From: Bacteroidota bacterium
GTDB lineage: Bacteria; Bacteroidota; Rhodothermia; Balneolales; HLUCCA01
Length of the DNA stretch: 64,000 bases
Reading direction: 5' to 3'
Assembly: GCA_020832235.1 (NCBI GenBank)
Contig: JAFIEZ010000020.1
Span: forward strand, 1 to 64,000
A program made the position numbers and the translations under genes. Below the pieces are notes generated by a model, which made no database searches, was not told where the DNA came from, and saw only the letters and a program-made list of their open reading frames with translations. The first letter of the stretch is position 1. The number at the start of each line of letters is the position of its first letter. Shown in pieces: positions 142-60,866 of the stretch.

Positions 142-234
142 GCGTGAGTACGTTATCACTATGAGCCCTGTTAATCAATTTAAAACGACGACAAAAACGG
201 GAAACCGTAAAATAAAAAAACAAAGAGGTAAACT

Positions 235-2289: not shown

Positions 2290-2310
2290 TCCCAATATCT
2301 CGTCTTATCA

Positions 2311-2346
2311 GAGGGGGGCAGGTATCCTGCCTGCCTCCCCCTTTAT
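2311..2346 (+). terminator. Possible rho-independent terminator
   Basis: A G-rich run followed by a C-rich run (AGGGGGGCAGG then CCTGCCTCCCCCT) can form an imperfect strong hairpin ending in TTTATAT. It lies 20 bases after the secreted binding protein and before the LacI gene. The stem has a bulge, so the call is moderate. Confidence 0.45.
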
Positions 2347-2367
2347 ATCTACCGTAATTCAGCAACC

Positions 2368-3378
2368 TTGTCAGCTACTATATACGATATTGCACGTGAA
2401 GCCGGCGTAAGCATAGCTACCGTATCCAGAGTGTTCAATAACGCGAATAATGTTTCGCCTAAAACACGCGATAAGGTATTGTCTATTGCCGAGTCTGCAG
2501 GATACCATCCTTATGCCATGGCTCAAGCTCTGGCCCGGAAAAAATCCAAACTCATCACGGTTATTGTCCCGGTGATCTCCAATCACTTCTTTATGGAAGT
2601 ACTTGCAGGTATTCAGGACAAAATCGCTGAGTACGACTACGATTTGAATATCTATAATGTTCGTATTACCGAAGACATCGACAAGCAAATTGAATACCTC
2701 ATCAAAAGAGGTGTAGCCGACGGATACCTGTTAATTTCAATTCACCTCAACGATAACCAGTGGTCGTGCATAAAAAAGCTTCACGACAATATTATACTCA
2801 TCGACGAATATCACCATGATTTTGATTCGGTGAGTGTTGACAGTGTGGAAGGCGCTTACCTTGCAACACAGCATTTAATCGATTTAGGTTACGAGCGTAT
2901 TGCCATGATTACGGCACTCATGGACTCCAAACCGGCCGATGACCGTATTCGAGGATACAGTCGCGCCCTGCAGGATGCAGGTCGTATTGTAGACAGTCGC
3001 TTAATCGTTTCGGGGAAGCATTACAGCCGCGATGGATTTACCGAGCGAAACGGTTACGAAGCCATGTGCCAGATTCTGGACATGCATGATGTACCCGACG
3101 CGTGTTTCTGCAGTTCCGACATTCAGGCCATGGGTGCCATGAAAGCGATGAACGATCGTGGTGTATCTATTCCAATAATGGGATTTGATGACCTGCGTTT
3201 CTCCGAGTTTCTTGGACTCACCAGCATGAAACAACCAATGTATGACATGGGATGGCTGGCTTTAGAAAAGCTTTTCCAAAGAATTGACGACAATGAAATA
3301 GACATCTCACACACCATTTTTTCACCTGAGTTGGTCGTCAGAAGTTCTTCACAGATAACTGAACCAACAAAGATTTAA
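2368..3378 (+). CDS. LacI-family transcriptional regulator
   Basis: A 336-aa regulator with an N-terminal LacI helix-turn-helix (TIYDIAREAGVSIATVSRVF, residues about 4-23) followed by the hinge ('SAGYHP') and a periplasmic-binding-protein-like effector domain. The frame begins at a TTG codon directly before the HTH; no nearby ATG keeps the complete HTH, so TTG is the best start, though no clear Shine-Dalgarno sequence is visible. It sits between a secreted glucan-binding protein and a secreted GH13 amylase on the same strand, so the simplest reading is that it senses a maltodextrin-like sugar and controls these two genes. The effector is inferred from context only. Confidence 0.85.
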   Translation: MSATIYDIAREAGVSIATVSRVFNNANNVSPKTRDKVLSIAESAGYHPYAMAQALARKKSKLITVIVPVISNHFFMEVLAGIQDKIAEYDYDLNIYNVRITEDIDKQIEYLIKRGVADGYLLISIHLNDNQWSCIKKLHDNIILIDEYHHDFDSVSVDSVEGAYLATQHLIDLGYERIAMITALMDSKPADDRIRGYSRALQDAGRIVDSRLIVSGKHYSRDGFTERNGYEAMCQILDMHDVPDACFCSSDIQAMGAMKAMNDRGVSIPIMGFDDLRFSEFLGLTSMKQPMYDMGWLALEKLFQRIDDNEIDISHTIFSPELVVRSSSQITEPTKI

Positions 3379-3432
3379 CGTACATCGATCAGGCTCTACA
3401 CCCGTAACCTATCGTAACTAATTGCTCAGATT

Positions 3433-6324: not shown

Positions 6325-6383
6325 AATAACATAGTTCCTTAAACATCGTTTGTTATCCGAAAGGTTTTTTCGATGTTTACCCG

Positions 6384-6416
6384 ACCCGTACAGTTGCTGC
6401 TGTACGGGTTTTTTTA
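6384..6416 (+). terminator. Rho-independent terminator after the amylase gene
   Basis: A perfect 10-bp stem (ACCCGTACAG / CTGTACGGGT) with a 6-nt loop is followed by a run of seven T. It closes the glucan-utilisation transcript. Confidence 0.9.
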
Positions 6417-6571
6417 TGGTTGTAATAACAAGAACTTCGTATTTCGGATAACGAATAGCCATTTTGCCACATACATGCCGCTCCAAAAACGCATGCATCC
6501 AATGAAGTCGCCTGCACAACAGCAGCCGTTGTATCCATCCTCCATTCCCCGAATATGTGTATCTTTTAGTC

Positions 6572-7138
6572 ATGAAAATTGATCCAAAATATTTTAACCT
6601 GTTTGCCGTAACCATCGGTGTATCAGGTATCGCTGCTATTTTTTATTTCACCATCAGCTATACTGCAAATCAGAAAATGGGTTTTATCGAAAACCTTGGT
6701 GATGGCAGAAACTTATATGAGCATGCTTTTCCACATCGAAACGGAGTCGATACCCTTCGGGCAAAAGACTTTGCCGGCAAATTTGTGGTCATTGATTTCT
6801 GGGCTACCTGGTCGACACCGTCCATGGGTTCGCACGAAAAACTCTGGGCTGTGGTAAGGCAGTCGACCGATGACGTGGTTGTGCTGGCTGCCGGGGTAAA
6901 AGATAATCCTGAACTCACTGCAGAATACATGCAGGAACACCCCTATAATTTTCAGTTTGTGGAAGGCAGCGACGCATTTCATGAGCTGCTGGCACCTGGC
7001 GTACCTACACAGGTGACGTTCGGACCCGATGGAAGTATTGTGGACGTAAGACTGGGCTTCAGGGGGAATGATAACTACGACGAACTTCGGGAAATACTGC
7101 GTGAATTTCGAAGAAACCGGGCACAAGAAGATCCATGA
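6572..7138 (+). CDS. Membrane-anchored TlpA/ResA-like thioredoxin-fold protein lacking both catalytic cysteines
   Basis: A 188-aa protein with one N-terminal membrane segment (about residues 9-30) and a thioredoxin-like domain. The segment FWATWSTPSM aligns with the FWATWCxPC active site of TlpA/ResA proteins, but S81 and S84 occupy the two cysteine positions and no other CxxC is present. The cis-proline region (GVPTQVTF) is retained. It therefore cannot act as a disulfide reductase and may bind or chaperone a partner instead. I prefer the ATG at 6572 to the GTG at 6557. The stop overlaps the start of pabC by 4 bases (ATGA), so the two are translationally coupled. Confidence 0.75.
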   Translation: MKIDPKYFNLFAVTIGVSGIAAIFYFTISYTANQKMGFIENLGDGRNLYEHAFPHRNGVDTLRAKDFAGKFVVIDFWATWSTPSMGSHEKLWAVVRQSTDDVVVLAAGVKDNPELTAEYMQEHPYNFQFVEGSDAFHELLAPGVPTQVTFGPDGSIVDVRLGFRGNDNYDELREILREFRRNRAQEDP

Positions 7139-7926
7139 GCGCTTTTCCACGTGCAATTGCTTACTACAAAGACGGTGTGAAACTGAGTGATGAAACGTTG
7201 AAGACCCTGATGTCTTTGCGTGAATGGAACGAGGGGTATTTTGAAACCATGCGAATCAAAAACGGCAATCTTCCCTTATGGTCCTACCATCTTGCCAGGC
7301 TCAAAAGAGGAGAACAGCATACAGGTATTGCATTACCCAAGATGGATTTCATCCACGAGTTGTTCAACGCGTTTTCCGCTGGTGATTACCGATGCAGGCT
7401 TACCATTATTCCCGCAGGGAAAGCGGCATCTTCGGCCATAGTGGCGTTGTATCCATTGCCGGAATCAAAAAATGCGTATCGACTAAAATCAGCAGCACGA
7501 CCACATCCTTTTACCGATTCTCACCATACAACCGTAAAGCTATCATACAGAGTGTATTACAACGAAATGTATTCTCAGGCGCTCACAGAAGGAGCGGATG
7601 ATGCCCTATTAATCAGTCCCGAGAATTTCGTAAGTGAAACCTGCATAGCGAACATTATTGTATCCACTAATTGTGGTGATTTGCTCACACCTGCCGCAAC
7701 CGCCATGCCGCTGGAAGGAACAGGGCTGCAATATTTGCGAGATAAAATGGCAGGTGAAACGCTCATAAAACAAGCCATGTTGCAGTACACGGATTTAATC
7801 CACTCAAATGGAATCTGGATAGTCAACGCTTTGAGGGGAATCGTGCCCGTCACGCAGATAGATGACTACGCAATACCCCAAAATGAAACTCAAACAACGT
7901 TTTTAGCATCATTTTTCCCATACTAG
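7135..7926 (+). CDS. pabC: Aminodeoxychorismate lyase-like class IV aminotransferase
   Basis: A 263-aa PLP-dependent fold-type IV protein, close to the usual length for 4-amino-4-deoxychorismate lyase. Recognisable class IV features are the 'GYFETMRI' N-terminal segment, a lysine in VKLSYRVYY suited to binding PLP, and 'SETCIANIIV', the conserved segment after the catalytic domain. It lies 3 bases upstream of pabB, so the pair would turn chorismate into aminodeoxychorismate and then into p-aminobenzoate plus pyruvate for folate synthesis. A branched-chain or D-amino-acid aminotransferase is the alternative, but the pairing with pabB argues for PabC. Confidence 0.8.
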   Translation: MSAFPRAIAYYKDGVKLSDETLKTLMSLREWNEGYFETMRIKNGNLPLWSYHLARLKRGEQHTGIALPKMDFIHELFNAFSAGDYRCRLTIIPAGKAASSAIVALYPLPESKNAYRLKSAARPHPFTDSHHTTVKLSYRVYYNEMYSQALTEGADDALLISPENFVSETCIANIIVSTNCGDLLTPAATAMPLEGTGLQYLRDKMAGETLIKQAMLQYTDLIHSNGIWIVNALRGIVPVTQIDDYAIPQNETQTTFLASFFPY

Positions 7927-7929
7927 ATT

Positions 7930-9306
7930 ATGGCTGAACCAGCAGTTTACGAAACCGCATCCCGCGCAGATTTTTATAAAATGGTCCAAAAGGAAGCCGA
8001 TACAGGAGATGTGATTCTGCTCGACTCCCAGCTTCCCGATCACCCATCTTCAGGTAAATCGTATCTTTTTGCCGGCTTTGACGCTATTTTCAGATGGAAT
8101 CAACATGTTGAAACAAGCGTGGACAATGCAGATGGGAGCAGCAAACCTGAAGAAAAACATGTTAAAAACCCGAATGGCCGCTCGCCCAAAGAAGCCGAAA
8201 AAAACACGCTTAATGCGTCACGTACCGATTCCGGTACTGCCCAGAAAGACCCACATGGTGACCCATGGCTTGAACTGCAACGATTCAGAGAACGCTTCCC
8301 CGGTTACTGCTGCGGCTATCTGGGTTACGATTTAAAGAATGCCCGGGAACAGCTCATATCCGAGAATGCCGACCCTATTGGTCTGCCTGATATGTGGATG
8401 GGCAGACCAACCCGCATTTATATCCTTAACGAAGGCGACGTTTCGAGCGAAGATTTTCTCATTCAAGAAGCACGGCCTTTCAATATGGAGAATCTTGTCG
8501 CCGCTGATAATGCCACTACCTACAAACAAAAGGTTGAGCGTGCACAGAAATACATAACAGAAGGCGATATCTACGAGGTAAACATCTCGCATCAACTTAA
8601 AGCCAATTTTACAGGAGAGCCATTCAGTCTTTTCATACATATGGCTCAACGAGGCCCGGTTCCGTTCGCCTCATACCTGAAATTAGAAGACGTACACGCC
8701 TGCTGCGCTTCGCCCGAGCGATTTTTAACTAAAAAAGGGGAGGCGATCTACTCCGACCCCATCAAAGGTACCCGTCCCAGAGGCAACTCCCCCGAAGAAG
8801 ATGAGGAAATTGTTCGCGAGCTCTCATCCTCCGAAAAAGAAAAGGCTGAAAATCTTATGATTGTAGACCTGGTGCGCAACGATTTCAGCAGAGTGTGTAC
8901 ATCGGGCTCGGTGAAAGTAAGCAATCTTTTTGAAATCCAGCACTTCAGCACGGTACACCAGATGGTATCGCGCGTGGAAGGTACCCTCCAGAAGGATGTC
9001 ACCTCGGAGGAGGTACTGGCAGCCTGTTTTCCTATGGGATCTATGACCGGTGCACCGAAAATACGTAGTATGCAGATAATTGAAGAGTTGGAAGATTATA
9101 AAAGAGGACTTTACAGCGGTGCAATCGGGGTTATAACTCCCGATGGAGATTTTAATTTTAACGTGGTGATTCGTACAGCAATCATTCGCGATGAGAAGCT
9201 CTATTACTCCACCGGTGGAGCCATAACAGCCGATTCCGACCCTTTGGCTGAGTGGGAAGAAACCCTGATAAAGTCCCGTGCCTTGGGCACTGCCCTTCGC
9301 GACTAA
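7930..9306 (+). CDS. pabB: Aminodeoxychorismate synthase component I
   Basis: A 458-aa chorismate-binding enzyme. The C-terminal half has the family signatures: an ADC/anthranilate synthase 'SDPIKGTRPRG' segment, 'AENLMIVDLVRND', and 'GSMTGAPKIRSM'. The PIKGTRPRG form fits PabB better than TrpE. Residues about 55-100 are a hydrophilic, charged, low-complexity insert rich in K, E, N, S and T that looks unlike the family core. The gene starts 3 bases after pabC. No glutamine amidotransferase (PabA/TrpG) is nearby, so the ammonia-donating subunit must be encoded elsewhere. Confidence 0.87.
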   Translation: MAEPAVYETASRADFYKMVQKEADTGDVILLDSQLPDHPSSGKSYLFAGFDAIFRWNQHVETSVDNADGSSKPEEKHVKNPNGRSPKEAEKNTLNASRTDSGTAQKDPHGDPWLELQRFRERFPGYCCGYLGYDLKNAREQLISENADPIGLPDMWMGRPTRIYILNEGDVSSEDFLIQEARPFNMENLVAADNATTYKQKVERAQKYITEGDIYEVNISHQLKANFTGEPFSLFIHMAQRGPVPFASYLKLEDVHACCASPERFLTKKGEAIYSDPIKGTRPRGNSPEEDEEIVRELSSSEKEKAENLMIVDLVRNDFSRVCTSGSVKVSNLFEIQHFSTVHQMVSRVEGTLQKDVTSEEVLAACFPMGSMTGAPKIRSMQIIEELEDYKRGLYSGAIGVITPDGDFNFNVVIRTAIIRDEKLYYSTGGAITADSDPLAEWEETLIKSRALGTALRD

Positions 9307-9473
9307 GAGCCGGCAGCCTCCAGCGTGCTCTTAATTGAATGACCATCTTCAACTGGGGTCTGAATCCAAATAGTGGGCAAATAATTTAAAACCATACTGA
9401 ATGATAAAGTCATTGGTACGGTTTGAATGGATGTAAGAAAGCAACTTCACCATTATTTTAGAAGCAAAACAGT

Positions 9474-10979
9474 ATGAAATTCGATATTGAATCGATTAAA
9501 ACACTCGACGATCTACGCAAGGCGGGATGGCAATCGGTTTCGGTGAAAGAAGAAATGCGCCGTAATCTCATCGCCAAAATGCAGAACGATGAGCCCTTAT
9601 TCAGTGGCATGGTCGGGTACGAGAAAACGGTCATACCACAGATACAGAATGCCATTTTATCGAGGCATGATATCATCTTGCTCGGACTGCGTGGTCAGGG
9701 TAAAACCCGAATGCTGCGCATGCTTGTAGAATTGCTGGATCCGTGGATGCCGGTGGTAGAAGGCTCTGAAATTAATGACGATCCATATCATCCGATATCA
9801 CGTTATGCACGCGATATCGTAGCCAAATACGATGGTAAAACCCGTATCAGCTGGGTTGCATCTAAAGATCGGTACGCCGAAAAGCTGGCGACACCAGATA
9901 CTACCGTAGCCGATCTTGTTGGCGATATCGATCCTATCAAAGCTGCTACTCAAAAATTGGCCTTGTCGGATGAGGAAGTGATTAATTTCGGACTCATTCC
10001 CCGCACGCATCGGGGTATATTTGCTATAAATGAGCTACCCGACTTACAGCCCCGCATTCAAGTAGCCTTGTTGAACATTATGCAGGAGCGTGACATCCAG
10101 ATACGTGGGTTTAATGTTAGAGTTCCTGTGGATGTATGTATGGTGTTTTCTGCAAATCCGGAGGACTATACCAACCGCGGAAACATTATCACACCGCTCA
10201 AAGACCGTATCGACTCGCAAATTATTACGCATTACCCGAAAACAGTCGATATCGGGATTCAGATTACGGGTCAGGAAGCAAGAATAGAAAGAGGTACGTC
10301 CACCAAAGTACACATCCCGCATTATGTTCGTGAAATTATTGAGCAAATTGCCTTCGAAGCTCGTGAATCGGAGTACATCGACCAGAAAAGTGGTGTATCA
10401 ACACGTATGACCATTACGGCGATGGAAAATGCGGTATCTGCGGCCGAGCGCCGTGCATTGCGAAATGTCGAGAGCGAAACGACTATCCGAGTGTGTGATA
10501 TATTTTATACGGTACCGTCTCTTACCGGTAAGTTGGAACTGGTCTATGAAGGGGAGCAAGAGGGCGCCGTTAGTGTTGCACAGCACCTTATCGGAAAAGC
10601 CGTATCCAAGGTGTTCAAAAAATACTTCCCCGATCCGCAGCGTAAGTCCAAACCCAAGGTAAACCCAGAAGATGCCCCTTATAAAACGGTTCTTGACTGG
10701 TTTTCATCCGGCAATGGCATTTCGCTACCCGATGATCTCAAAAATGCAGATTATCGCAAGAGGCTTATGGAAGTAGAAGGGCTCGAGGCACTGGTTCAAA
10801 AGCATGCTCCAACCTCCGATGAGCTGCAACGTCTGGCCATGATGGATCTTGTACTTGAGGGGTTGCATCAGCACAGTATGCTAAGCAAAGAAGATCTTGA
10901 TGAAAATCGCACCTACACCGATCTCGTAGGCAGTATGCTGGGATCACTGGGTGGTTTCGAAGACGAGGATTTTCAGTAA
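9474..10979 (+). CDS. MoxR/magnesium-chelatase-like AAA+ ATPase
   Basis: A 501-aa ATPase with Walker A GLRGQGKT at residues 71-78 and a Walker B region GIFAINELPDL at 181-191, where asparagine replaces the usual first acidic residue before the catalytic glutamate. A sensor-1-like segment (VFSANPEDY) follows, then helical regions matching the ChlI/MoxR lid. Such ATPases usually work with a von Willebrand factor A protein to remodel or metallate a target, but the next gene here is bL31 and no VWA partner is adjacent. The target is unknown. A 167-bp gap separates it from pabB, so it probably has its own promoter. Confidence 0.75.
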   Translation: MKFDIESIKTLDDLRKAGWQSVSVKEEMRRNLIAKMQNDEPLFSGMVGYEKTVIPQIQNAILSRHDIILLGLRGQGKTRMLRMLVELLDPWMPVVEGSEINDDPYHPISRYARDIVAKYDGKTRISWVASKDRYAEKLATPDTTVADLVGDIDPIKAATQKLALSDEEVINFGLIPRTHRGIFAINELPDLQPRIQVALLNIMQERDIQIRGFNVRVPVDVCMVFSANPEDYTNRGNIITPLKDRIDSQIITHYPKTVDIGIQITGQEARIERGTSTKVHIPHYVREIIEQIAFEARESEYIDQKSGVSTRMTITAMENAVSAAERRALRNVESETTIRVCDIFYTVPSLTGKLELVYEGEQEGAVSVAQHLIGKAVSKVFKKYFPDPQRKSKPKVNPEDAPYKTVLDWFSSGNGISLPDDLKNADYRKRLMEVEGLEALVQKHAPTSDELQRLAMMDLVLEGLHQHSMLSKEDLDENRTYTDLVGSMLGSLGGFEDEDFQ

Positions 10980-51532: not shown

Positions 51533-51665
51533 GCTATTCTGTTGTTAAATATCCGTATTAGGGTATTTAACATGAACCTATTTTATATCATAATCGTTGT
51601 GCTTCATTAGTTTACAGGTTACATCACGATATCATTTACATCAAATATTAACACAATTATTAAAC

Positions 51666-52832
51666 TTGGACAGAAGAAAAATACTCCAAAGAGCCACTGA
51701 ATTCATTCAAAAGTATTACCGTGAGACGAATTCATACGCTGAAGAAGAACTGATAGAACGTTTAGCCGCCGTTGAGGCCCAGATAATTAAACTCGGAACC
51801 TACGTACACACTAAAGAAGAGCTGGAATTTGGTGCCAAAGTAGCATGGAGAAACAGTAACAGGTGCATTGGTCGACTGTTCTGGGATTCGTTAACCGTAT
51901 TTGATAATCGGCATCTAACAGATCCCCTTGACATTATGAGAGCTACGGTAGCGTATGTGAAGTGGGCAGAAAATGACGGCAAAATTCGTCCAGCAATTTG
52001 TGTTTTTGCCCCGCTTAATCCCTCGAATGGTGAAAGTATACGTTTCTGGAACAGCAAACTGGTACGTTATGCCGGATATAAAGACCATGATAAAGACAAC
52101 GTAACTGGTGATCCGGATGAAGTTGAATTTACGCATGCATGTCAGCGTTTGGGCTGGAAAGGGGCAGGAGGGAAATATGACGTGCTTCCGGTTGTAATTG
52201 ACTCACCGGGATATGAAACACAATGGTTCAACTGGTGTGATTGGCACAAGCCACTTGAGGTACCCATCATCCATCCCGAGTACAAGTGGTTCGAAGAACT
52301 TGAGTTGAAATGGTATGGTTTGCCGATCATATCTGATATGACGCTCGAAATCGGTGGAATTGAATACACCGCAGCCCCATTTAACGGATGGTTTATGGGG
52401 ACCGAAATCGGTACCCGGAATCTGGCGGACGAACACCGATACAATATGTTGCCTGAAATTGCAGAACGTTTGAACCTCAATAAGCGCAACCGCTCTGCTT
52501 TATGGCGTGACCGGGCTCTGACCGAGTTAAACACAGCCGTTTTGTACTCATTCAAGGCGCGAGGTGTTACTATGGTAGACCATCATAGTGCAGCTACACA
52601 GTTCGAACGATTTGAGCGCAGGGAAAAGGAAGCAGGCAGAACGGTATGTGCCGACTGGGCGTGGTTAGTACCGCCAACGGCAGGATCAACAACAAACCTG
52701 TTTCATAAGCAGTGGTCAAATGACGTTCAAAGCCCCAACTACTACTATGCAGATAAGCCATACGAAGACCATTCCGGAAATGATAAACACGACTCAGCTG
52801 TCTGCCCATTTCACATACAAGCCCGTAAGTAA
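51666..52832 (+). CDS. nos: Bacterial nitric oxide synthase, oxygenase domain only
   Basis: A 388-aa heme enzyme. The NOS signature WRNSNRCIGR gives the axial heme ligand C67, preceded by YVHTKEELEFGAKVA. The arginine- and pterin-site segments 'LELKWYGLPIISDM', 'AAPFNGWFMGTEIG', and 'VDHHSAATQFERFE' match the bacterial family, and the glutamate that binds L-arginine lies in GTEIGTRN. It converts arginine to citrulline and NO, using an external reductase because no flavin domain is attached. The frame opens at TTG 51597, but the sequence before 51666 has no family similarity, so the TTG at 51666 is preferred. It is next to a tRNA gene and the integrated element. Confidence 0.94.
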   Translation: MDRRKILQRATEFIQKYYRETNSYAEEELIERLAAVEAQIIKLGTYVHTKEELEFGAKVAWRNSNRCIGRLFWDSLTVFDNRHLTDPLDIMRATVAYVKWAENDGKIRPAICVFAPLNPSNGESIRFWNSKLVRYAGYKDHDKDNVTGDPDEVEFTHACQRLGWKGAGGKYDVLPVVIDSPGYETQWFNWCDWHKPLEVPIIHPEYKWFEELELKWYGLPIISDMTLEIGGIEYTAAPFNGWFMGTEIGTRNLADEHRYNMLPEIAERLNLNKRNRSALWRDRALTELNTAVLYSFKARGVTMVDHHSAATQFERFERREKEAGRTVCADWAWLVPPTAGSTTNLFHKQWSNDVQSPNYYYADKPYEDHSGNDKHDSAVCPFHIQARK

Positions 52833-52942: not shown

Positions 52943-53028
52943 GCCGCAGTGGTGGAATGGTAGACACGATGGACTTAAAATCCATTGACCCTCAAACGGT
53001 CGTGCCGGTTCGAGTCCGGCCTGCGGTA
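52943..53028 (+). tRNA. tRNA-Leu (UAA)
   Basis: The sequence begins GCCGCAG and closes with CTGCGGTA, giving a 7-bp acceptor stem with one G-T pair. The D arm, a long variable arm typical of leucine tRNA, and the T loop GTTCGAGTC are present. The anticodon loop reads CTTAAAA with anticodon TAA. Its 3' half is duplicated at 60804, so it is the attachment site of the element. Confidence 0.93.
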
Positions 53029-53031
53029 CAC
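52969..53031 (+). repeat. attL: 63-bp direct repeat within tRNA-Leu
   Basis: All 63 bases from the anticodon-stem region of tRNA-Leu to three bases past its end are identical to 60804-60866. The repeat keeps the tRNA intact at this end. Confidence 0.95.
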
Positions 53032-53034
53032 GTT

Positions 53035-53088
53035 AAGCCCTTGTAATTCATAGTCTTATTGAATTGCCGGGGCTTTTCTTTTTTTTGC
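53035..53088 (+). terminator. Terminator after tRNA-Leu, carried by the element
   Basis: AAGCCC and GGGCTT bracket partially paired AATTCA/TGAATT sequence and are followed by a long T-rich run. It restores a terminator for the tRNA after integration; the original terminator is at 60870. Confidence 0.75.
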
Positions 53089-53100
53089 TAAATGTGCATC

Positions 53101-53142
53101 TGGTACACGAAAATTCAGCGCTGGTACATGATTGGTACATGA
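53101..53142 (+). repeat. Left TGGTACAYGA boxes
   Basis: TGGTACACGA at 53101 and TGGTACATGA at 53122 and 53133. The last two are 11 bases apart, about one helical turn. The same boxes occur near the right end. They are candidate integrase arm-binding sites. Confidence 0.6.
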
Positions 53143-53235
53143 ATCGGGGGTATAAGGGGGTCTTTTTTTTAGTATGCGACTTATACGCTTTTTTTGATAG
53201 GTAGCCCGTTCCCGTATATATATAGATGACACCCC

Positions 53236-53393
53236 TACTTAATTTACTTAATTACTTAGAAAGGCGATTCCGCTTCATACGGGGCGATTATTGCCAAAAA
53301 TAGGGGGTACTTACGCTACTTAGTTACTACTTAATAAGGGTAGATTCCATAAAAAAAGCCCCTAGTCGGTCAAAACTAAGGGCTTACTACTTA
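53236..53393 (+). repeat. Left TACTTA repeat array
   Basis: Seven TACTTA copies start at 53236, 53245, 53253, 53308, 53317, 53328 and 53388. The first three (53236-53258) form a 23-bp block that is repeated in inverse orientation at 60587-60609 with one mismatch. Confidence 0.7.
53351..53385 (-). terminator. Terminator after terL
   Basis: On the minus strand AAGCCCTTAG pairs with CTAGGGGCTT and is followed by a run of T. It ends the leftward transcript of the island about 25 bases past the terL stop. Confidence 0.85.
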
Positions 53394-53408
53394 GCGCAGT
53401 AATCTAAC

Positions 53409-54791
53409 CTAAAGCGCAATTAAACGGGGTTTTATAGTTGGGTAATCGGGTTTTATTAGACCGTATCGCACCGCGTCCGCTGAATGGTCTGGCTGTCGGG
53501 TGTCTAGGTCTTCAGCGTTTCGGGGGTCACGTCCCAGATACGGTACAGTAGCCCAGAAGTATTCACAATTTCGGGCGATATATAGCCCCGGTCGGTCTGG
53601 CTTCCCCGCGTCTTCTAGCATCCGTCGCATACGTTCCCAGCCAGATTTTCGGTCTGATTTATGTGCGCGCCTAAAGGTTACACCCGCCCGCGAAAATTCA
53701 TTAGCTATTGATCCAGACGCAGACCCATGATTAGAAAATATTGCATCATCTGCCACGCCCGCGGGCTTAATGTCCCACTTGTAAGCCATTTCTTTTATTA
53801 GTTCGGCTAAGTGCGGGACGGTATAGCCCAGCCCTTCATTTAGTGCCACGGGGTCGGATGTTACAAGTTCATCTATTATCAGTATGGAATCTTTCGGGAA
53901 GTATTGCTCACCGATTGAAGCGCCCGGACTTTCTAGCATGATGTAGGTAGCTGAAGGGGCGGAAGACCCGTAATCATGCGTAAGCCAATGATTCCACTTT
54001 GAAGTTTTGGAAGACCAGCCGTCTTTTTTGTCGGGTATAGCGCTTATTGGGTCTATGGCGTTTCGGTTTTCGTCGATTACAGTAGCGAAGTAAGCGCCCC
54101 TTGCGACCGCCCAATCACCTTCAAGCCATGCCCTTAATAGTTCTTTGTCGGTCGGACATGATGCTTCCAGCTGTTTGATGTACTGCGCTTGGTCTATAAA
54201 CGGGTTGTCCCTATATGTTGAAGGGGCGTACACCCATTGTCTGCCAGACTGTTCATCTTTGAAGGGCGTCCACGGCTTCGACTTAAAGACGTAGCGTTTA
54301 GCTAACCAATGATGACCAGCCCCGCCCGGATTCGCCCCGATTACCATGCGTATAGGGATTGATTTATCACCCCGTAAGTTTGAACGTAGTCGGTCGATTA
54401 GTTCGGGGGTCGGATATTGCCCGGCTTCGTCTATAATAAGAAGGGTGAAGCTTCGTCCCTGGTACTTATCATAGTCCCGCGCGGACTCTAATTGTCCTAG
54501 TTCAATGTACCCGCCATTAGGTAAACGCCAGACGTGTTCTGTGCCATTATATCGAGCTTTTTTACCAAATAACTGCCCGAAAATATCCATTGTGATGTTT
54601 TCAAAGTCTGCCAGACCCTTATAAGTCTTCCTTATATATAGTACCCGCGCTTTATTGCCATGTTCGGTACAATGTCTAAGGGCTAGGGCTAACATGGTAA
54701 ATGATTTTGAACCACCACGACCACCGCCCAGAAAGACGTCGAATTCTTCCGGGACGATACAGACGCGGTTTTGAAAATTACTTAGTTTCAT
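53409..54791 (-). CDS. Phage terminase large subunit
   Basis: A 460-aa complete TerL. The packaging ATPase has Walker A GGGRGGSKS (22-30) and Walker B LLIIDE (117-122). The RNase H-like nuclease domain has candidate metal ligands D273 (THDYGSS), D348/D349 (VADDAIF) and D435/D439 (DHSADAV). It would cut concatemeric DNA and pump it into a procapsid. It overlaps the TerS gene by 14 bases and is the last gene of the island. With no capsid or portal genes here, it must dock on a portal supplied by another phage. Confidence 0.93.
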   Translation of the reverse strand: MKLSNFQNRVCIVPEEFDVFLGGGRGGSKSFTMLALALRHCTEHGNKARVLYIRKTYKGLADFENITMDIFGQLFGKKARYNGTEHVWRLPNGGYIELGQLESARDYDKYQGRSFTLLIIDEAGQYPTPELIDRLRSNLRGDKSIPIRMVIGANPGGAGHHWLAKRYVFKSKPWTPFKDEQSGRQWVYAPSTYRDNPFIDQAQYIKQLEASCPTDKELLRAWLEGDWAVARGAYFATVIDENRNAIDPISAIPDKKDGWSSKTSKWNHWLTHDYGSSAPSATYIMLESPGASIGEQYFPKDSILIIDELVTSDPVALNEGLGYTVPHLAELIKEMAYKWDIKPAGVADDAIFSNHGSASGSIANEFSRAGVTFRRAHKSDRKSGWERMRRMLEDAGKPDRPGLYIARNCEYFWATVPYLGRDPRNAEDLDTRQPDHSADAVRYGLIKPDYPTIKPRLIAL

Positions 54792-55176
54792 CTTCTTGCT
54801 GATTTATTTGCATGGTTTTAATGTATTCTTCTGGCTTCATAGACCCCGGAAGGGTAATCTGTACGGCTATGGCGTTCGTGTTTTGGACTTCTGCGCCTTC
54901 TTTATATCCGTGTCGGGTCTTCAGTAGGAACATTGAAGCGGTTGAATCGCCTTTCATCGCTTTTTCATATAGCACCCCGAAAAGCTTATCATGTTCAATC
55001 ATGCGCGCTTGTTCCAATACTTCGCGGGTCGTTTCGTCTTCGCGCTTAATTCGTACCCATGTATCATACCCTAGCCCTAAAGCTTTGGCGATATCCGTTT
55101 CGTTTACGCCCCGCTGCGCTAGGTCGCGTATAATCTGATGCCCGCGCTTTGATATAGTCTTTTTTCTGCGTCCCAT
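54778..55176 (-). CDS. Probable terminase small subunit
   Basis: A 132-aa protein with a basic N-terminus (MGRRKKTISKR), a helix-turn-helix (GVNETDIAKALGLGYDTWVRIK), a helical oligomerisation region and an acidic C-terminus. Its size, HTH and overlap with terL fit TerS, which recognises the packaging site. The assignment rests mainly on position and the HTH. It would set which DNA is packaged, and a private version could redirect packaging to the island. Confidence 0.8.
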   Translation of the reverse strand: MGRRKKTISKRGHQIIRDLAQRGVNETDIAKALGLGYDTWVRIKREDETTREVLEQARMIEHDKLFGVLYEKAMKGDSTASMFLLKTRHGYKEGAEVQNTNAIAVQITLPGSMKPEEYIKTMQINQQEDETK

Positions 55177-55195
55177 GTTCTTAATGTTTAGGGCT

Positions 55196-55220
55196 GGGGC
55201 TTCCCGATTAAGAAAGCCCC
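55196..55220 (-). promoter_or_regulatory. Hairpin between the 140-aa gene and terS
   Basis: GGGGCTT and AAGCCCC form a perfect 7-bp stem with an 11-nt loop in the 58-bp gap before terS. No T-run follows on the minus strand, so it may be an attenuator or a processing site rather than a terminator. Confidence 0.55.
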
Positions 55221-55234
55221 TTCACCCGTGAATA

Positions 55235-55657
55235 TTAGCGGTCTATTTTGATGTTGTCGTTTAGCTTACTAAGCGTAACTAGTGAAGCATCTTCCAGACC
55301 GTTTAACCCTAGCGCTGTCATGTAAGCGCTGTGACCAAATACTTCGCTGAAGCGTTCGCGCGCTTGTGGGGTAGTGAATTCATCCGCTGAAACTTCGATT
55401 TCAAGTTCAACGTCTTGCGACCGCGGGGCTACCTTGCTCATGTCTGCTAAGATATTTTCGCGGTTCTTTTCGTAGGCTTCTGGGGACATTTTCCCGATTT
55501 CTTCCGGGGTGTAGCCCGCAAATTTACCCGTACCACCGTAAGCAAGTGCGAAGCGGTTAAGGGTGTCTTGGTACTTCATTACCCCCAGAATGTCCACGAA
55601 GTTTTGAACGTTCTTGGGTTCTTCTAGAAATGATCGTTTGATTTTTACTTTAGGCAT
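55235..55657 (-). CDS. Unknown island protein, 140 aa
   Basis: Not recognised. The protein is soluble and mostly helical at the N-terminus (VQNFVDILGVMKYQDTLNRF) with an acidic stretch (DVELEIEVSADEF) in the middle. It has no signal or membrane segment. It starts 8 bases after the 85-aa gene and precedes terS. It may act in packaging or in interference with the helper phage; that is context-based guesswork. Confidence 0.7.
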   Translation of the reverse strand: MPKVKIKRSFLEEPKNVQNFVDILGVMKYQDTLNRFALAYGGTGKFAGYTPEEIGKMSPEAYEKNRENILADMSKVAPRSQDVELEIEVSADEFTTPQARERFSEVFGHSAYMTALGLNGLEDASLVTLSKLNDNIKIDR

Positions 55658-55665
55658 GGTCTTTA

Positions 55666-55923
55666 TTATTTGATGTAAGGGTTTATTCGTACTTGTGTTG
55701 CGATTCGGGTATCAATGAAGCCATTGATTGTTGCTGAAGCTTCCAGACGTCCGGTTTCATGGTTTTGCCCGAACCTTCTATCTGATTTAAGCCTTTTGGT
55801 CGCGTCGATAATGGTATCGACTGCCAGCTGTTGCACTTCTGAAATGACTTGCCCCAGATGCTTAGTCTGCGCTTCAAGTTCAGAATTCCGTCTTAGTAGT
55901 TCGTCGATTTCTTGCTGTGTCAT
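55666..55923 (-). CDS. Small coiled-coil island protein, 85 aa
   Basis: Not recognised. The first 45 residues (IDELLRRNSELEAQTKHLGQ, then VISEVQQL) have heptad spacing typical of a short coiled coil. The tail is polar. Its ATG overlaps the stop of the 61-aa gene by 4 bases, so translation is coupled. It could be a scaffold- or adaptor-like protein. Confidence 0.65.
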   Translation of the reverse strand: MTQQEIDELLRRNSELEAQTKHLGQVISEVQQLAVDTIIDATKRLKSDRRFGQNHETGRLEASATINGFIDTRIATQVRINPYIK

Positions 55924-56105
55924 GGTCTGCGTTCTTTGGGTTCTGGGTTGCCTAGCATTTTTCTAAGGTTGTATAAGTAGGTTGCAATGTGGGAAAGCGT
56001 TTCTGTATCGGTATGGGGGTTCGTAATAAACTGATGTATATCGTCTATCATGTACCCGTATTCGCGCTGAAACTCTTCGCTTTTTATGTTGATTGGTTGC
56101 TTCAT
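55920..56105 (-). CDS. Small island protein, 61 aa
   Basis: Not recognised. A short, soluble, helical protein (REYGYMIDDIHQFI, 'TETLSHIATYLYNLRKML'). It lies 11 bases after the primase-like gene and overlaps the 85-aa gene by 4 bases, which supports it as a real gene. Confidence 0.6.
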   Translation of the reverse strand: MKQPINIKSEEFQREYGYMIDDIHQFITNPHTDTETLSHIATYLYNLRKMLGNPEPKERRP

Positions 56106-56116
56106 GGTTGTATGAT

Positions 56117-56977
56117 TTATTGTTTGTGGGTTAAGTTGTCCGCGCCCGCCCCGTAATTGTTGCGATAGCGCTTATAAGCGTCTGAAATACAGTTGCTTTG
56201 AATTTCATCCAGACTGATTATTTCTTTATTGATGAAGGATTCCGCTTCATTCTGGGGTACGCCCTTAAAGTTTAGGAAGTCACATAAGCGAAAAATTGAA
56301 TAGTGCATATCCTTCGCGCGGGTGAAGGTGAATCCACGGTCGTAAACGAAGTTCATGCCCCGCGTAAAGACGTCGTTTGAATTGCTGATGTACTGTCTGT
56401 GACTGATTGGCGTACGTTCTTTGATTGGTTCGCCCTTCATCTTTGTATAGGTCTTCGCGCTTTCTTTGATAACCGCGTTCGGGTCGTAACTGTAAAAGCG
56501 TTTATCGTTAGCGTTCTGCCCCTTACTTGGGTCTAGGACTATGCCAATTCTTTTAAAATCAAGCTGTAACGCCCGATAATGCGCGCCTTGAACACTAGGG
56601 TCACTTATCTTTATAAGCGCCCAGACGCCCCGCCCAGACAGCGACAGCGCACTAAATGCCACGTGTTGTATATTGGCTAGCTGGTCGCGTAAATGTTCCC
56701 AATCGTTTATACTTGGGTTGTGGTCATCGTCGATGTCAATAGATACCCAGCCCGAAAAGGAAACAATGTTTTCTAGTCGATGTCCCCCGACGCATTGACC
56801 GCCCACGATTACAGAAGGCATAGTCTTTTTAAGCGCTTTATTTTGGTTCTTTCGGTATTGAATTACACGGTCTGTGTAAGTGCATCCGTTCTTTACGAAG
56901 TCCAGCCATTGCATAAGCTGTATATCTTGGGGCGGACTTTGAAAACTTGTGAGCATTGATACAGTATTATTGAACAT
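56117..56977 (-). CDS. BT4734/VirE N-domain primase-like protein
   Basis: A 286-aa protein. Residues about 55-175 match the archaeo-eukaryotic-primase-like BT4734/VirE N-terminal domain: SGWVSIDIDDD supplies the acidic pair (D81, D83) and SLSGRGVWALIKI gives the SxSGRG signature. A C-terminal helical part (about 205-280) follows. It may prime replication of the excised island. It overlaps the DUF3987 gene by 11 bases; the two families are often encoded together in phages and islands. Confidence 0.78.
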   Translation of the reverse strand: MFNNTVSMLTSFQSPPQDIQLMQWLDFVKNGCTYTDRVIQYRKNQNKALKKTMPSVIVGGQCVGGHRLENIVSFSGWVSIDIDDDHNPSINDWEHLRDQLANIQHVAFSALSLSGRGVWALIKISDPSVQGAHYRALQLDFKRIGIVLDPSKGQNANDKRFYSYDPNAVIKESAKTYTKMKGEPIKERTPISHRQYISNSNDVFTRGMNFVYDRGFTFTRAKDMHYSIFRLCDFLNFKGVPQNEAESFINKEIISLDEIQSNCISDAYKRYRNNYGAGADNLTHKQ

Positions 56978-58367
56978 CGCCAGACCCCGCTTCAGTTAGT
57001 TTGTATTCAAATCGCGGACGTCCGCCCGTTTCTACCTTAATAGCTTCGACGTGTCCGGCTTCGATTTCATTATCTAGTGCGCGGTCTAGTTGTTCTTTGT
57101 CGAAGTTTGTAAGATTCATTAAATCAGTTCGCGACATAATACCCGCGTTCTTTCCTAGCACTTCCAGAAGTCGCATCCTATCAGAATAAAAGCGGTTGAA
57201 TATGTAGTTTCTGGTCAGCATATAGACCTGGTGTTTGAAGCACCAATCACATAAGGCAATTGCCCCGCGCATATTCTTAGCGCTTATTTCTTGGTCTGGG
57301 TCTGTTAGCACTTGGAAGACCAGCGCAAACTTTAAACCGTAAGCATTAAGACGGGACGAATAGCCCCCGATGTCGCTTATGTTGTCTTCCATGTCCCGCG
57401 AACGGTTGAAAAGTTCATGCGACCAATCAGTAAATAGTTTGGAAGCTTCAGCACTTAGTTTCATGTCCTTTTTTGACAGTTCGGCTATGCTTAACAAGTG
57501 ATTAGACACATCATTAAATATTACCATGTCGGGGCTGGGTAGTTCTGTCATCGCCTTAAACTTCGTTTCCCCTTCGTATGTAATAGGAAGTATTCGCTGA
57601 AGGAATCCATTGCCACGGTCTGTACTAGACAGCGCGCTTCTAAGTGCGGGTACAGTTGTCGCACCTACCATACACCAGACCGGATTTTTAAGGGTAATGT
57701 CCCCGCCCATACGGGTAACGCGTCGCATATTGTCTTCAGCGTCATAAAGCGACAGTATAAAGTCACCCATACCCGTGTAAGTCTTCCCTAATTGCTTTAT
57801 AAGGGCTGTAAATTCAGTCACGAATGACACTAAAGACAGATTTTCTTGCAATGTCTGCCAGAACGTAAGGTCTGAAAATCCGTCCGGGGCGTATAGCCAG
57901 CGTTTAATTGGTTTAGGTTTATCAAATTCGCGCTTTGCTTCGTCCGCTTCCTTCTTTTCGGCTTCCCAGCGCTTAAGGGCTTCAGCGTATTCATGTTGCC
58001 ACTTTTCAATTATGGCTTTAAAGAAGCTTTTAGCGATTCCCATCTGGGTAGTCTTTCGCATCATGGAAGACTGCGCGCATATAATTGTCCATATTACCGG
58101 GTAGATAGTTATTCCGCCCAGCTTTATAAGCCTTTTATTGCCGATAAGCGCACCAATAAGGGCTATAAATGCCAGCGGGAAGAATGTTCGGGGGGAATCG
58201 GTCATTTCAGAAGCGTATCGCGTCGCTTTCTGTATCGTTTCTGGTAGCATTTCCAGAAGTTCGTCGCTTAATTCTAGGTCTTTAGGGGTAATCTTATACG
58301 CAGAAGCACTTTCCTCTTCTGTAAATGCGTCAAAATCTGCGTCTGGCGGAATTATAATCTTGTCCAT
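56967..58367 (-). CDS. DUF3987 helicase-like protein
   Basis: A 466-aa protein. The ATPase core has a P-loop variant AQSSMMRKTT (98-107), in which the GK of a normal Walker A is RK. This SSxxRKT form is known in DUF3987 proteins. A winged-helix-like C-terminus (LTNFDKEQLDRALDNEIEAG, then RPRFEYKLT) follows. With the primase-like protein it would form the replication module of the island. Confidence 0.78.
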   Translation of the reverse strand: MDKIIIPPDADFDAFTEEESASAYKITPKDLELSDELLEMLPETIQKATRYASEMTDSPRTFFPLAFIALIGALIGNKRLIKLGGITIYPVIWTIICAQSSMMRKTTQMGIAKSFFKAIIEKWQHEYAEALKRWEAEKKEADEAKREFDKPKPIKRWLYAPDGFSDLTFWQTLQENLSLVSFVTEFTALIKQLGKTYTGMGDFILSLYDAEDNMRRVTRMGGDITLKNPVWCMVGATTVPALRSALSSTDRGNGFLQRILPITYEGETKFKAMTELPSPDMVIFNDVSNHLLSIAELSKKDMKLSAEASKLFTDWSHELFNRSRDMEDNISDIGGYSSRLNAYGLKFALVFQVLTDPDQEISAKNMRGAIALCDWCFKHQVYMLTRNYIFNRFYSDRMRLLEVLGKNAGIMSRTDLMNLTNFDKEQLDRALDNEIEAGHVEAIKVETGGRPRFEYKLTEAGSGDVQ

Positions 58368-58408
58368 TACTGCGCGCCTTCTTAAATTAGATAAGTGTTT
58401 ACTGATAA

Positions 58409-58437
58409 GGGGCTAATCTTACTTTTAGGGTTAGCCC
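58409..58437 (-). promoter_or_regulatory. Hairpin between alpA and the DUF3987 gene
   Basis: GGGGCTAA and TTAGCCC pair over 7 bp with a 14-nt loop in the 75-bp gap. It has the same GGGCT/AGCCC character as the other island hairpins. Confidence 0.45.
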
Positions 58438-58442
58438 TTCTT

Positions 58443-58628
58443 TTATTGTTCAATTTTCCGACTGTTTAGAAAAGCCATTATGTCGGAACGAAGCCACCCG
58501 ACAGCACTTCCATTTTTAGAAAGCTTAATCTTTGGGGGTAGTTCTGGGGTCATGCGATAGACCGTCGAAATGCTAACAGATAGCATCTTCGCAAGTTCAG
58601 CGGGGCGGATAAATTCACTTGTATTCAT
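58443..58628 (-). CDS. AlpA-like excisionase/activator
   Basis: A 61-aa MerR/AlpA-type helix-turn-helix protein (RPAELAKMLSVSISTVYRM) followed by a beta-wing and SDIMAFLNSRK. AlpA-like proteins in phage satellites act as excisionases or activate the integrase/replication operon. Its start is directly next to a perfect inverted repeat at 58631-58668, which suggests tight control of this gene. Confidence 0.88.
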   Translation of the reverse strand: MNTSEFIRPAELAKMLSVSISTVYRMTPELPPKIKLSKNGSAVGWLRSDIMAFLNSRKIEQ

Positions 58629-58630
58629 AT

Positions 58631-58668
58631 TCTTTCAGTAGTTCGTTTGCGTTGTCGTTACTGAAAGA
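58631..58668. promoter_or_regulatory. Perfect inverted repeat in front of alpA
   Basis: TCTTTCAGTA (58631-58640) and TACTGAAAGA (58659-58668) form a perfect 10-bp inverted repeat with an 18-nt spacer, covering the leader and RBS region of alpA. It may be an operator or a translation-blocking hairpin. Confidence 0.65.
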
Positions 58669-58745
58669 AAATTACCCCGATATAGGGGGTGTAAATTCCG
58701 AAACTATAAGAAAAGCGGGTCAGTTTTAAGAAATAAGGGGGCTTT

Positions 58746-59243
58746 TTAGTACCCCTTCTTTTTTAGCTTAGTTAGTTCTGAATCTAACTTATCAGTCCAT
58801 CTGTAAAATGTATCTTTAGCGGGTTGCTGATATTTAGGATAGACTATCTTTTCATACGCTTCATTTTTATTCATGCCAGAAAGAAAGTAATCTTTAAGCA
58901 CCTTAGACATTAAGTCACGGTATCTGTCTTGGCACTTAATACTAGTAACTGCAATTTCAAACAGTTCTGGGGTGCTTTTACACATAAGTCTGCGTTCGTG
59001 AATTTCTGAAGCTTCCATTATATCTTCATTAGATGCTAGCGCTTCATCGTCTGGGAGCATAACGTCCCCCGCTTCATCTAGTTTTCTAAGCATGAAAGCG
59101 GTCTGCACATTTTCTTCACTTGGTATCACCTTTTCAAGTCCAGATAATACTTTCTTCATACCGGGCATAGAATAGCCTAGTTCTTTTTTAAATGCTTTGG
59201 CGTCGAATACCACCGCGCCCCGTCGTTTATTCTTTTCTTCCAT
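58746..59243 (-). CDS. Unknown island protein, 165 aa
   Basis: Not recognised. A charged protein with a basic N-terminus (EEKNKRRGAVVFDAKAFKK), an acidic central part and a C-terminal segment (FLSGMNKNEAYEKIVYPKYQ, then DTFYRWTDKL) that could be a helix-turn-helix. Its start is one base past the integrase stop, so it is co-translated with the integrase. It could be a regulator or a directionality factor; this is inferred only from its place. Confidence 0.65.
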   Translation of the reverse strand: MEEKNKRRGAVVFDAKAFKKELGYSMPGMKKVLSGLEKVIPSEENVQTAFMLRKLDEAGDVMLPDDEALASNEDIMEASEIHERRLMCKSTPELFEIAVTSIKCQDRYRDLMSKVLKDYFLSGMNKNEAYEKIVYPKYQQPAKDTFYRWTDKLDSELTKLKKKGY

Positions 59244-59244
59244 A

Positions 59245-60477
59245 TTAGCCCACCTTAACAGATTTTAGGTTAGTAATGATCGTGGTTAAACGTCCGCCCC
59301 AGATGTCCAGCGCTTCACGTTTACGCGGTAGATAGTTAATCTTAGCGTATCGCTTGGTAATCATATACTCGCCCGCTAGTCCCTTATGATTTAGCACTTC
59401 GCCAATAACGACCAAATCAATACCCAGCTCAGTCATATTACCCCCAACAATGTGCCGTAAATCGTGAACATGAAATTCATCCGACCCCAGCGCTTTACGT
59501 ATCCGCTTTGCCCCCGTACGGAAGTCGGGTATCGGTCTTTCTTGGTCATTCAAAGAAGGGAAGACCAGCGCGCTATCGGGAAACATTTCTTTCATGCGGT
59601 TCAATATACCGACAGCCATTTCAGACAGCGGGACTTCATGCGGGGTACTGTTTTTCGTTTCGCCCGCGGGAATCCGCCAGACCCTAGCGCTTAAATCTAT
59701 ATTCGCCCATTTCATGCGGGAAGTTTCCCCTTCGCGTTGCCCGGTAACCAGAAGCATTTTAAGACAGTATTCTAATGTCGGATAGTTGTCTTCCATCGAC
59801 TTCCATATAAGCCTAATCTGGTCTTCAGAATAAACGACGTCGCGTTCACGTTCGACAGCCAGCTTCTTCATGCCCTTTATAGGGTTGTCCGTTATTACAC
59901 GGTCTTCCACCGCTTCATTAAAAAGCTTCGACAGAACAGAATGTATGCGGTTTGCGTTAGTCGGCCTTAACATCACTTCTTCTTTTAGAAATTCGCGTAT
60001 ATGATTATTGGTAATATCCTTCATAGGTAACGACGCCAGCGAACGGGTGTCCAGAATCCTATTTAGTCGGGACGTGTAATCTTTCTGGGTCGAAGGCTTC
60101 AGACGTCTGGCTATGTAATCACGCTTAAATCTTACTGCGTACTGCCCTAATGTGATAGGGGCTTCCGTCTTCCGCTTCTGCCGTTCGCGGGCGGGGTCGT
60201 GTCCATCTGAAGACATTTCCGACAGTTCGCGGGCTTTACTGCGCGCATCGCTTAAACTTAGTTCCGGGTAATGTCCGATAGTCACGCGTTTAGTATTGCC
60301 GTTCCGATAGTATCTAAACATGAATAGCTTACTAGTCGGATTCACGCGAAGTATAAGACCGTTCGCACCTTCGCGCTTAAGGGTATTACCTTCGATTAAA
60401 TGCTGGTCGTAGTATTCAACGCGTTTATCGTGAATTACATTCTTAATGAATCGGTCTGTTAAATGAAGTTTTGGCAT
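59245..60477 (-). CDS. int: Tyrosine integrase with P4-type arm-binding domain
   Basis: A 410-aa recombinase. The N-terminal DUF4102 arm-binding domain (DRFIKNVI, 'LILRVNPTSKLFMFRYY', 'IGHYPELSLSDARSKA') is followed by a core-binding SAM-like domain and the catalytic domain. Active-site residues are R248 (GQREGE), K274 (ETKNS), H338 and R341 (HDLRH), H364 (LNHK) and the nucleophile Y377 (KRYAKI). It would integrate the island in tRNA-Leu. It is next to attR with its promoter facing the arm repeats. Confidence 0.95.
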   Translation of the reverse strand: MPKLHLTDRFIKNVIHDKRVEYYDQHLIEGNTLKREGANGLILRVNPTSKLFMFRYYRNGNTKRVTIGHYPELSLSDARSKARELSEMSSDGHDPARERQKRKTEAPITLGQYAVRFKRDYIARRLKPSTQKDYTSRLNRILDTRSLASLPMKDITNNHIREFLKEEVMLRPTNANRIHSVLSKLFNEAVEDRVITDNPIKGMKKLAVERERDVVYSEDQIRLIWKSMEDNYPTLEYCLKMLLVTGQREGETSRMKWANIDLSARVWRIPAGETKNSTPHEVPLSEMAVGILNRMKEMFPDSALVFPSLNDQERPIPDFRTGAKRIRKALGSDEFHVHDLRHIVGGNMTELGIDLVVIGEVLNHKGLAGEYMITKRYAKINYLPRKREALDIWGGRLTTIITNLKSVKVG

Positions 60478-60511
60478 GGTAGAACCTTTTTAGGACTTTT
60501 TAGCCACTTTC

Positions 60512-60609
60512 TAAGTAAGTAAAAGGGTACTGTCTATTGCGTTTAAATAGGGGTGTACCCCCTTGTATGTTATAGAAATGACTTATTAAGTAATTAAGTA
60601 AACTAAGTA
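60512..60609 (-). repeat. Right TAAGTA repeat array, mirror of the left array
   Basis: TAAGTA copies at 60512, 60516, 60587, 60595 and 60604. The last three form 60587-60609, whose reverse complement matches 53236-53258 at 22 of 23 bases, with spacing 8 and 9 here versus 9 and 8 on the left. Confidence 0.75.
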
Positions 60610-60636
60610 GATATATATAGATATAGGGTGTTCTGT

Positions 60637-60688
60637 TGGTACACGATTGGTACATGATTTTGATGTCTGGTACACGATTGGTACACGA
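60637..60688 (+). repeat. Right TGGTACAYGA boxes in 11-bp-spaced pairs
   Basis: Boxes start at 60637 and 60648, and at 60668 and 60679. Each pair is 11 bases apart. The last is followed by ATTCAGCGC, which also follows the first left box within a few bases. Confidence 0.65.
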
Positions 60689-60704
60689 ATTCAGCGCAAA
60701 CTAG

Positions 60705-60791
60705 TGATAAGCGCTGATAAGTAAAGATAAGCATTAAGCGCTTAATTTCAATAACTTATGACAATAATTGAACGATAATGATAAGCGCTGA
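60705..60791. repeat. TGATAAGCGCTGA boxes and 14-bp palindrome
   Basis: TGATAAGCGCTGA occurs at 60705-60717 and 60779-60791, 74 bases apart. Between them ATTAAGCGCTTAAT at 60733-60746 is a perfect palindrome. All share AAGCGCT and lie next to attR, so they may bind an excisionase or repressor. Confidence 0.55.
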
Positions 60792-60803
60792 AAAGGCTAT
60801 ACA

Positions 60804-60866
60804 ATGGACTTAAAATCCATTGACCCTCAAACGGTCGTGCCGGTTCGAGTCCGGCCTGCGGTACAC
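60804..60866 (+). repeat. attR: displaced 3' part of tRNA-Leu
   Basis: Identical over 63 bases to 52969-53031. It lacks the acceptor 5' strand and D arm, so it is not a tRNA gene. It marks the right end of the element. Confidence 0.95.

Follow-up and report, generated by a model that had tools for sequence, protein, structure and literature searches.

The PICIs and SaPIs are satellites that redirect phage packaging; some encode a TerS, and the TerL that is used is that of the helper. P4-like satellites carry capsid-size and activation genes of the Sid/Psu/Delta type. The marine VEIMEs and tycheposons are heterogeneous, and some of them carry packaging genes; an overlap with the family described below is possible. 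Under the published definition, cf-PICIs encode a capsid, a maturation protease, a portal, connectors and an HNH nuclease (PMC10690885). The Streptomyces satellites MulchRoom and MiniFlayer encode TerS, TerL and head genes including a portal, a capsid and a scaffold, and have no known integrase (PMC10690885). SaPIbov5 encodes Ccm, a capsid-protein homologue (PMC8569155). For PICMI, homologues of terS, sid and ppi were not found, and these elements seemingly rely on helper packaging (PMC10803314).

The locus analyzed here is an island in a 64,000-nucleotide stretch of DNA (the window) from the Balneolales. It is probably an integrated phage satellite in which a private TerS-TerL pair would replace the whole terminase, with the procapsid, portal and tail borrowed from a helper. 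The island resembles cf-PICIs in being integrated, in carrying replication genes and its own TerS and TerL, and in that a helper would be needed at least for tails. However, it has no capsid, maturation protease, portal, connector or HNH nuclease and falls outside the cf-PICIs as defined there (PMC10690885). Its capsid-bearing relatives differ from cf-PICIs as well, having a capsid and a scaffold but no portal or connector; for them, the Ccm of SaPIbov5 is a precedent for a capsid-protein homologue in a satellite (PMC8569155). With PICIs and SaPIs the island shares int, AlpA and primase/replication genes, and in these it is PICI-like, but PICIs rely on the TerL of the helper and the island has a complete one. 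Like PICMI it is small, has genes for integration and replication and lacks capsid genes; PICMI, however, belongs to the Vibrionaceae and has no terminase gene, whereas the island has a terminase and its host belongs to the same order as a Balneolaceae MAG. VEIMEs and tycheposons are also small integrative elements, and are packaged in virions. MulchRoom and MiniFlayer likewise have their own TerS and TerL, but theirs are accompanied by portal, capsid and scaffold in elements with no known integrase, whereas the island has an integrase and none of those head genes (PMC10690885).

The island and its insertion site

The island spans positions 52969-60866 (about 7.8 kb) and is bounded by perfectly identical 63-bp direct repeats at 52969-53031 and 60804-60866 (plus strand; direct-repeat comparison), with a period of 7,835 bp; the first-pass annotation had described these repeats, and direct comparison bears it out. 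Of the two, the left one forms the 3' part of an intact tRNA-Leu(TAA), the attachment gene (52943-53029, plus strand; ARAGORN and Rfam tRNA), and the right one consists of a displaced tRNA 3' fragment. Beyond both copies, weaker similarity runs on into the downstream terminators. Within the window, the motif TGGTACAYGA has seven copies against 0.25 expected, and every copy lies just inside an island end, three at the left (53101-53142) and four at the right (60637-60688), both on the plus strand. The integrase has an arm-binding domain (Pfam search), and the motif copies are very probably its arm sites. The sequence TARTGATAAGCGCTGAWAAG, present twice close to the right repeat (60702-60795, plus strand), may mark excisionase sites. 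As expected of a satellite, this is an integrated element with an integrase between att repeats.

Ten intact open genes, all on the minus strand, fill the island. The first is a tyrosine integrase of 410 aa (59245-60477; Phage_integrase, 2.8e-23; phrog_1, 1e-64), followed by orf165 (58746-59243, 165 aa) and an AlpA-like excisionase/regulator (58443-58628; Phage_AlpA, 22.4 bits against a cut-off of 21; phrog_66, 1.4e-9). A DUF3987 replication protein (56967-58367; 6.7e-32) and a primase-like protein with a BT4734-like N-terminal domain (56117-56977; BT4734-like_N/primase, 5.4e-11) form the replication genes. After orf61 (55920-56105, 61 aa), orf85 (55666-55923, 85 aa) and orf140 (55235-55657, 140 aa) comes a TerS-like gene (54778-55176, 132 aa; phrog_309, 3.8e-8; family HMM, 5e-52), which overlaps the start of TerL (53409-54791, 460 aa; phrog_2, 1.4e-30). 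In TerL, the Walker A and B motifs and the acidic residues of the nuclease are conserved. These open reading frames and their Pfam and PHROGs matches agree with the initial description of an intact integrase, AlpA-like, primase-like, DUF3987, TerS-like and complete TerL genes on one strand.

The same annotation had reported no capsid, portal, tail or lysis gene, and the searches concur: in Pfam and PHROGs the ten proteins have no convincing match to capsid, portal, connector, tail or lysis families, and so the genes for a complete virion are absent, as in a satellite. Sid/Psu/Delta-type families likewise have no match in the island in these two databases, where orf61, orf85, orf140 and orf165 are assigned to no family; a capsid-modifying role for these four small proteins may be considered. 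Just after TerL is a terminator-like hairpin with a 12-bp stem and a T-tail (53356-53385, minus strand; consensus match only). Given this hairpin and the overlap of TerS with TerL, the operon looks built to end with TerL and not broken off there.

In a congener (G002), the same tRNA-Leu is flanked on one side by a remnant of a nitric oxide synthase (NOS) gene and on the other by homologues of the genes to the right of the island in the window (orf126 and a PAS kinase), with no island; one host kinase gene sits between these flanks. Also free of the island is a second genome (G001), in which the tRNA and some of the flank are present. Of the original interpretation, the satellite-like anatomy is supported, as are a complete terminase unaccompanied by structural genes, related elements at other tRNA sites and an empty syntenic site in a congener. 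The gene flanking the island in the window encodes a nitric oxide synthase oxygenase (51597-52832; PF02898, 1e-152), and a shorter NOS-like frame takes its position in the congener.

Relatives of the terminase

Relatives were found by TerL profile search of genome contigs, phage records and plasmid records. Within the Balneolales there are three loci with closely related TerLs: the window, G058 (72-74% identical) and G022 (68-69%). No other locus in 394 genomes of the phylum has an E value below 1e-60. About 40 further loci, in Pseudomonadota, Acidobacteriota and Desulfobacterota, have TerLs that are 52-66% identical; named carrier strains include Terriglobus roseus DSM 18391, Rhodoferax antarcticus, Desulfobulbus rhabdoformis and Halomonas halocynthiae. 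Below 52% there is a gap, and the next matches in genome contigs are at 29% and lower. The family thus spans at least four phyla (Balneolota, Pseudomonadota, Acidobacteriota and Desulfobacterota, at 52-74% identity). The closest TerL among 50,697 phage records is only 34% identical, and the closest among plasmid records 32%. Since the TerLs of known isolated phages reach at most 34%, we know of no cultured helper whose motor matches.

These elements share a plan. By profile searches over six frames, 36 TerL-family loci have an integrase, and in nearly all of them TerS immediately precedes TerL. The integrase lies at one att, followed by the replication genes and then TerS-TerL, with TerL usually the last gene before the other att. 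In 17 loci the element lies between direct repeats that fall at a tRNA end, and TerL is usually no more than about 1 kb away from the right one; several are only 14-18 bp long, yet they coincide with the tRNA 3' end. A capsid protein (phrog_247), usually accompanied by a scaffold-like protein (phrog_206), is present in 18 of the 36 integrase-bearing loci (partial in one), and the other 18, including the window, have no capsid gene of that family. The first-pass annotation had regarded a stand-alone TerS-TerL pair in this host lineage as unlike the classical satellite families. It is not special to the host lineage, however: the family occurs in four phyla, and half of its members have a capsid protein.

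No portal or connector family was detected in the 73 other ORFs of the capsid-type islands. Lambda-I-like tail proteins occur in two of these islands, and lambda-I-like tail assembly proteins are encoded at L005:6049-6627, L015:3503-4147 and L016:4534-5340, in the absence of most other tail genes. No portal or capsid Pfam family was found in 96 ORFs of mainly capsid-less loci, a set that includes some frames of three loci that carry a capsid gene (L028, L057 and L042). Among the first 25 of the 102 PHROGs families listed for the mainly capsid-less loci are at least two neck/tail-completion proteins, one head-morphogenesis protein and one tail assembly protein. In Sphingomonadales islands, a second, half-length TerL-like protein (about 250-264 aa) is encoded downstream of the full TerL (L037:11719-12510, L056:12274-13068 and about 3.2 kb in L034); it is possibly an interference or regulatory protein.

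Six capsid-less members have in common a protein of about 230 aa, F8, encoded near TerS-TerL at the position where others have the capsid gene. It is modelled confidently as all-helical (pLDDT 91). With no match in BFVD or the PDB at E below 0.001, it is not assigned as a Sid-like scaffold. In the window, the position of the relatives' capsid or F8 gene is taken by orf140, whose predicted structure was poor (pLDDT 65) and matched no fold. The shared position of orf140 and the structurally unmatched F8 leaves room for an integrative element that needs no helper and uses its terminase only to resolve concatemers, or whose simple particle is formed by orf140 or F8. This is very improbable: terminases need a portal and a procapsid, and we know of none that works without them, and orf140 has only 140 aa and a single, doubtful match among 129 genomes of the order. 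Neither DUF3987 nor orf140 has relatives in viral contigs.

Relatives of the primase-like gene occur in 12 other genomes of the order, and in three of these (G070, G083 and G016) the gene neighbours a DUF3987 homologue (E 2e-124 or lower) with no TerL. Because the pair occurs without TerL in the Balneolales, the element in the window appears to join a regional replication module to a terminase module. Its DUF3987 protein is related to those of the Halomonas and Pseudomonas islands. Three Balneolales loci (L175, L181 and L183) have the DUF3987 and primase-like module without a terminase, and the first two also have an integrase.

Capsid-less clades and selection on TerL

In the TerL tree, the window is sister to the two other Balneolales loci (support 100/99). 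One of these, G022, is an independent 9.2-kb island in a tRNA-Leu(CAA) gene with a different integrase. It contains a tail-terminator gene, a small kinase-like gene and an F8-family protein (L007:12137-14828); with capsid and portal absent, it looks like a satellite with isolated tail parts.

Not every member of the terminase clade is an island. Two IMG/VR contigs, L059 and L060, have TerLs inside the clade, and the final tree treats them as phage. In L060, an environmental phage, TerL is followed by a phrog_145 portal, a head-morphogenesis protein, a scaffold, a phrog_283 capsid, an adaptor, a closure protein and tail proteins (184-9795); its capsid family differs from the phrog_247 family of the islands. 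The clade is therefore common to at least one phage lineage and the terminase is not exclusive to satellites. The satellites may have their source or their partner in phages of this type. An apparent Balneolales prophage with a phrog_145 portal (L159, in G072:C16), from the same genus group as G022, has a TerL only distantly related to that of the island.

These phages bear on whether the island is a decayed prophage that has lost its capsid, portal, tail and lysis genes and retained the integrase, replication and terminase genes by chance. Homologues continuing into portal, capsid and tail genes were named at the outset as the observation that would speak for such decay. The L059/L060 lineage does continue in this way, with a full head module after the clade TerL, and the apparent prophage in the order, with its portal and distant TerL, lends the idea some further support. 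Integrated relatives, however, stop at or soon after TerL and have no portal genes; continuation is confined to the free phage contigs. Across four phyla, different tRNA genes hold elements with this truncated plan, all ten genes of the island are unbroken, and TerL is followed by the terminator-like hairpin and then att.

The capsid-less state also appears durable. Among islands, the capsid state changes at least three times on the TerL tree, and every member of the Balneolota/Desulfobacterota group and of the Sphingomonadales group is capsid-less. As about three changes suffice, the state is stable within clades, and as whole groups are capsid-less, absence of the capsid is a lasting condition and not a single recent deletion. 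Pairwise dN/dS for TerL is 0.04-0.09 between the closer pairs of relatives, a sign of strong purifying selection on the gene there. In the comparison of the window with its sisters, saturation of the synonymous sites leaves only the nonsynonymous difference to report, at about 0.21-0.24. Stable capsid-less clades and purifying selection on TerL in the relatives argue against a decaying prophage, and we regard that origin as unlikely.

The conserved TerL residues are also relevant to the idea that the island is mainly an anti-phage element, whose TerS and TerL occupy the portals or DNA of phages and so block the helper. Satellites often restrict their helpers, several island genes have no assigned function, and the kinase-like gene of the sister island in G022 weakly resembles defence kinases. 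However, all 40 full-length TerLs retain the Walker A and B motifs and the nuclease aspartates (with single deviations at two Walker A glycines), although a decoy could do without them, and primase domains aside, no protein of the window matches a known defence family. Interference as the main role is thus a decidedly doubtful explanation.

Proposed packaging with a private terminase

The first-pass annotation had a helper hijacked by substitution of the whole terminase; this is still an inference, as are excision, replication, docking on a foreign portal, transfer in virions and the identity of the helper. The integrase and AlpA would excise the island from tRNA-Leu, and the DUF3987/primase-like pair would replicate it, probably into concatemers. 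On infection by a tailed phage, the island TerS would recognise island DNA and the island TerL would dock on the helper portal, so that helper procapsids fill with island DNA and then receive helper tails. The helper is perhaps a phage with a phrog_145-type portal. No portal gene was detected in the host genome by PF04860 or phrog_145, and no helper prophage was found in that way. A TerL is normally matched to the portal of its own phage. The missing portal remains odd: none of the scanned islands supplies this gene, including the islands that have a capsid protein of their own.

On balance, we lean towards a distinct family of satellites in at least four phyla, undescribed as judged against the cf-PICIs, PICIs and SaPIs, PICMI and the Streptomyces satellites. 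Its hallmark would be a full terminase of its own, joined in some members by a capsid protein and scaffold, and the portal and tail would come from the helper. To our knowledge, no satellites have been described before in phyla including Balneolota, Acidobacteriota and Desulfobacterota, and there the TerL clade, together with a capsid gene without a portal, provides markers by which satellites can be searched for. If the proposed mechanism is correct, helpers would be hijacked by replacement of the motor, as opposed to TerS redirection or a change in capsid size. Satellites could then swap the entire packaging motor of a helper without supplying the portal on which it docks, and the specificity of terminase-portal pairing would become a testable question.
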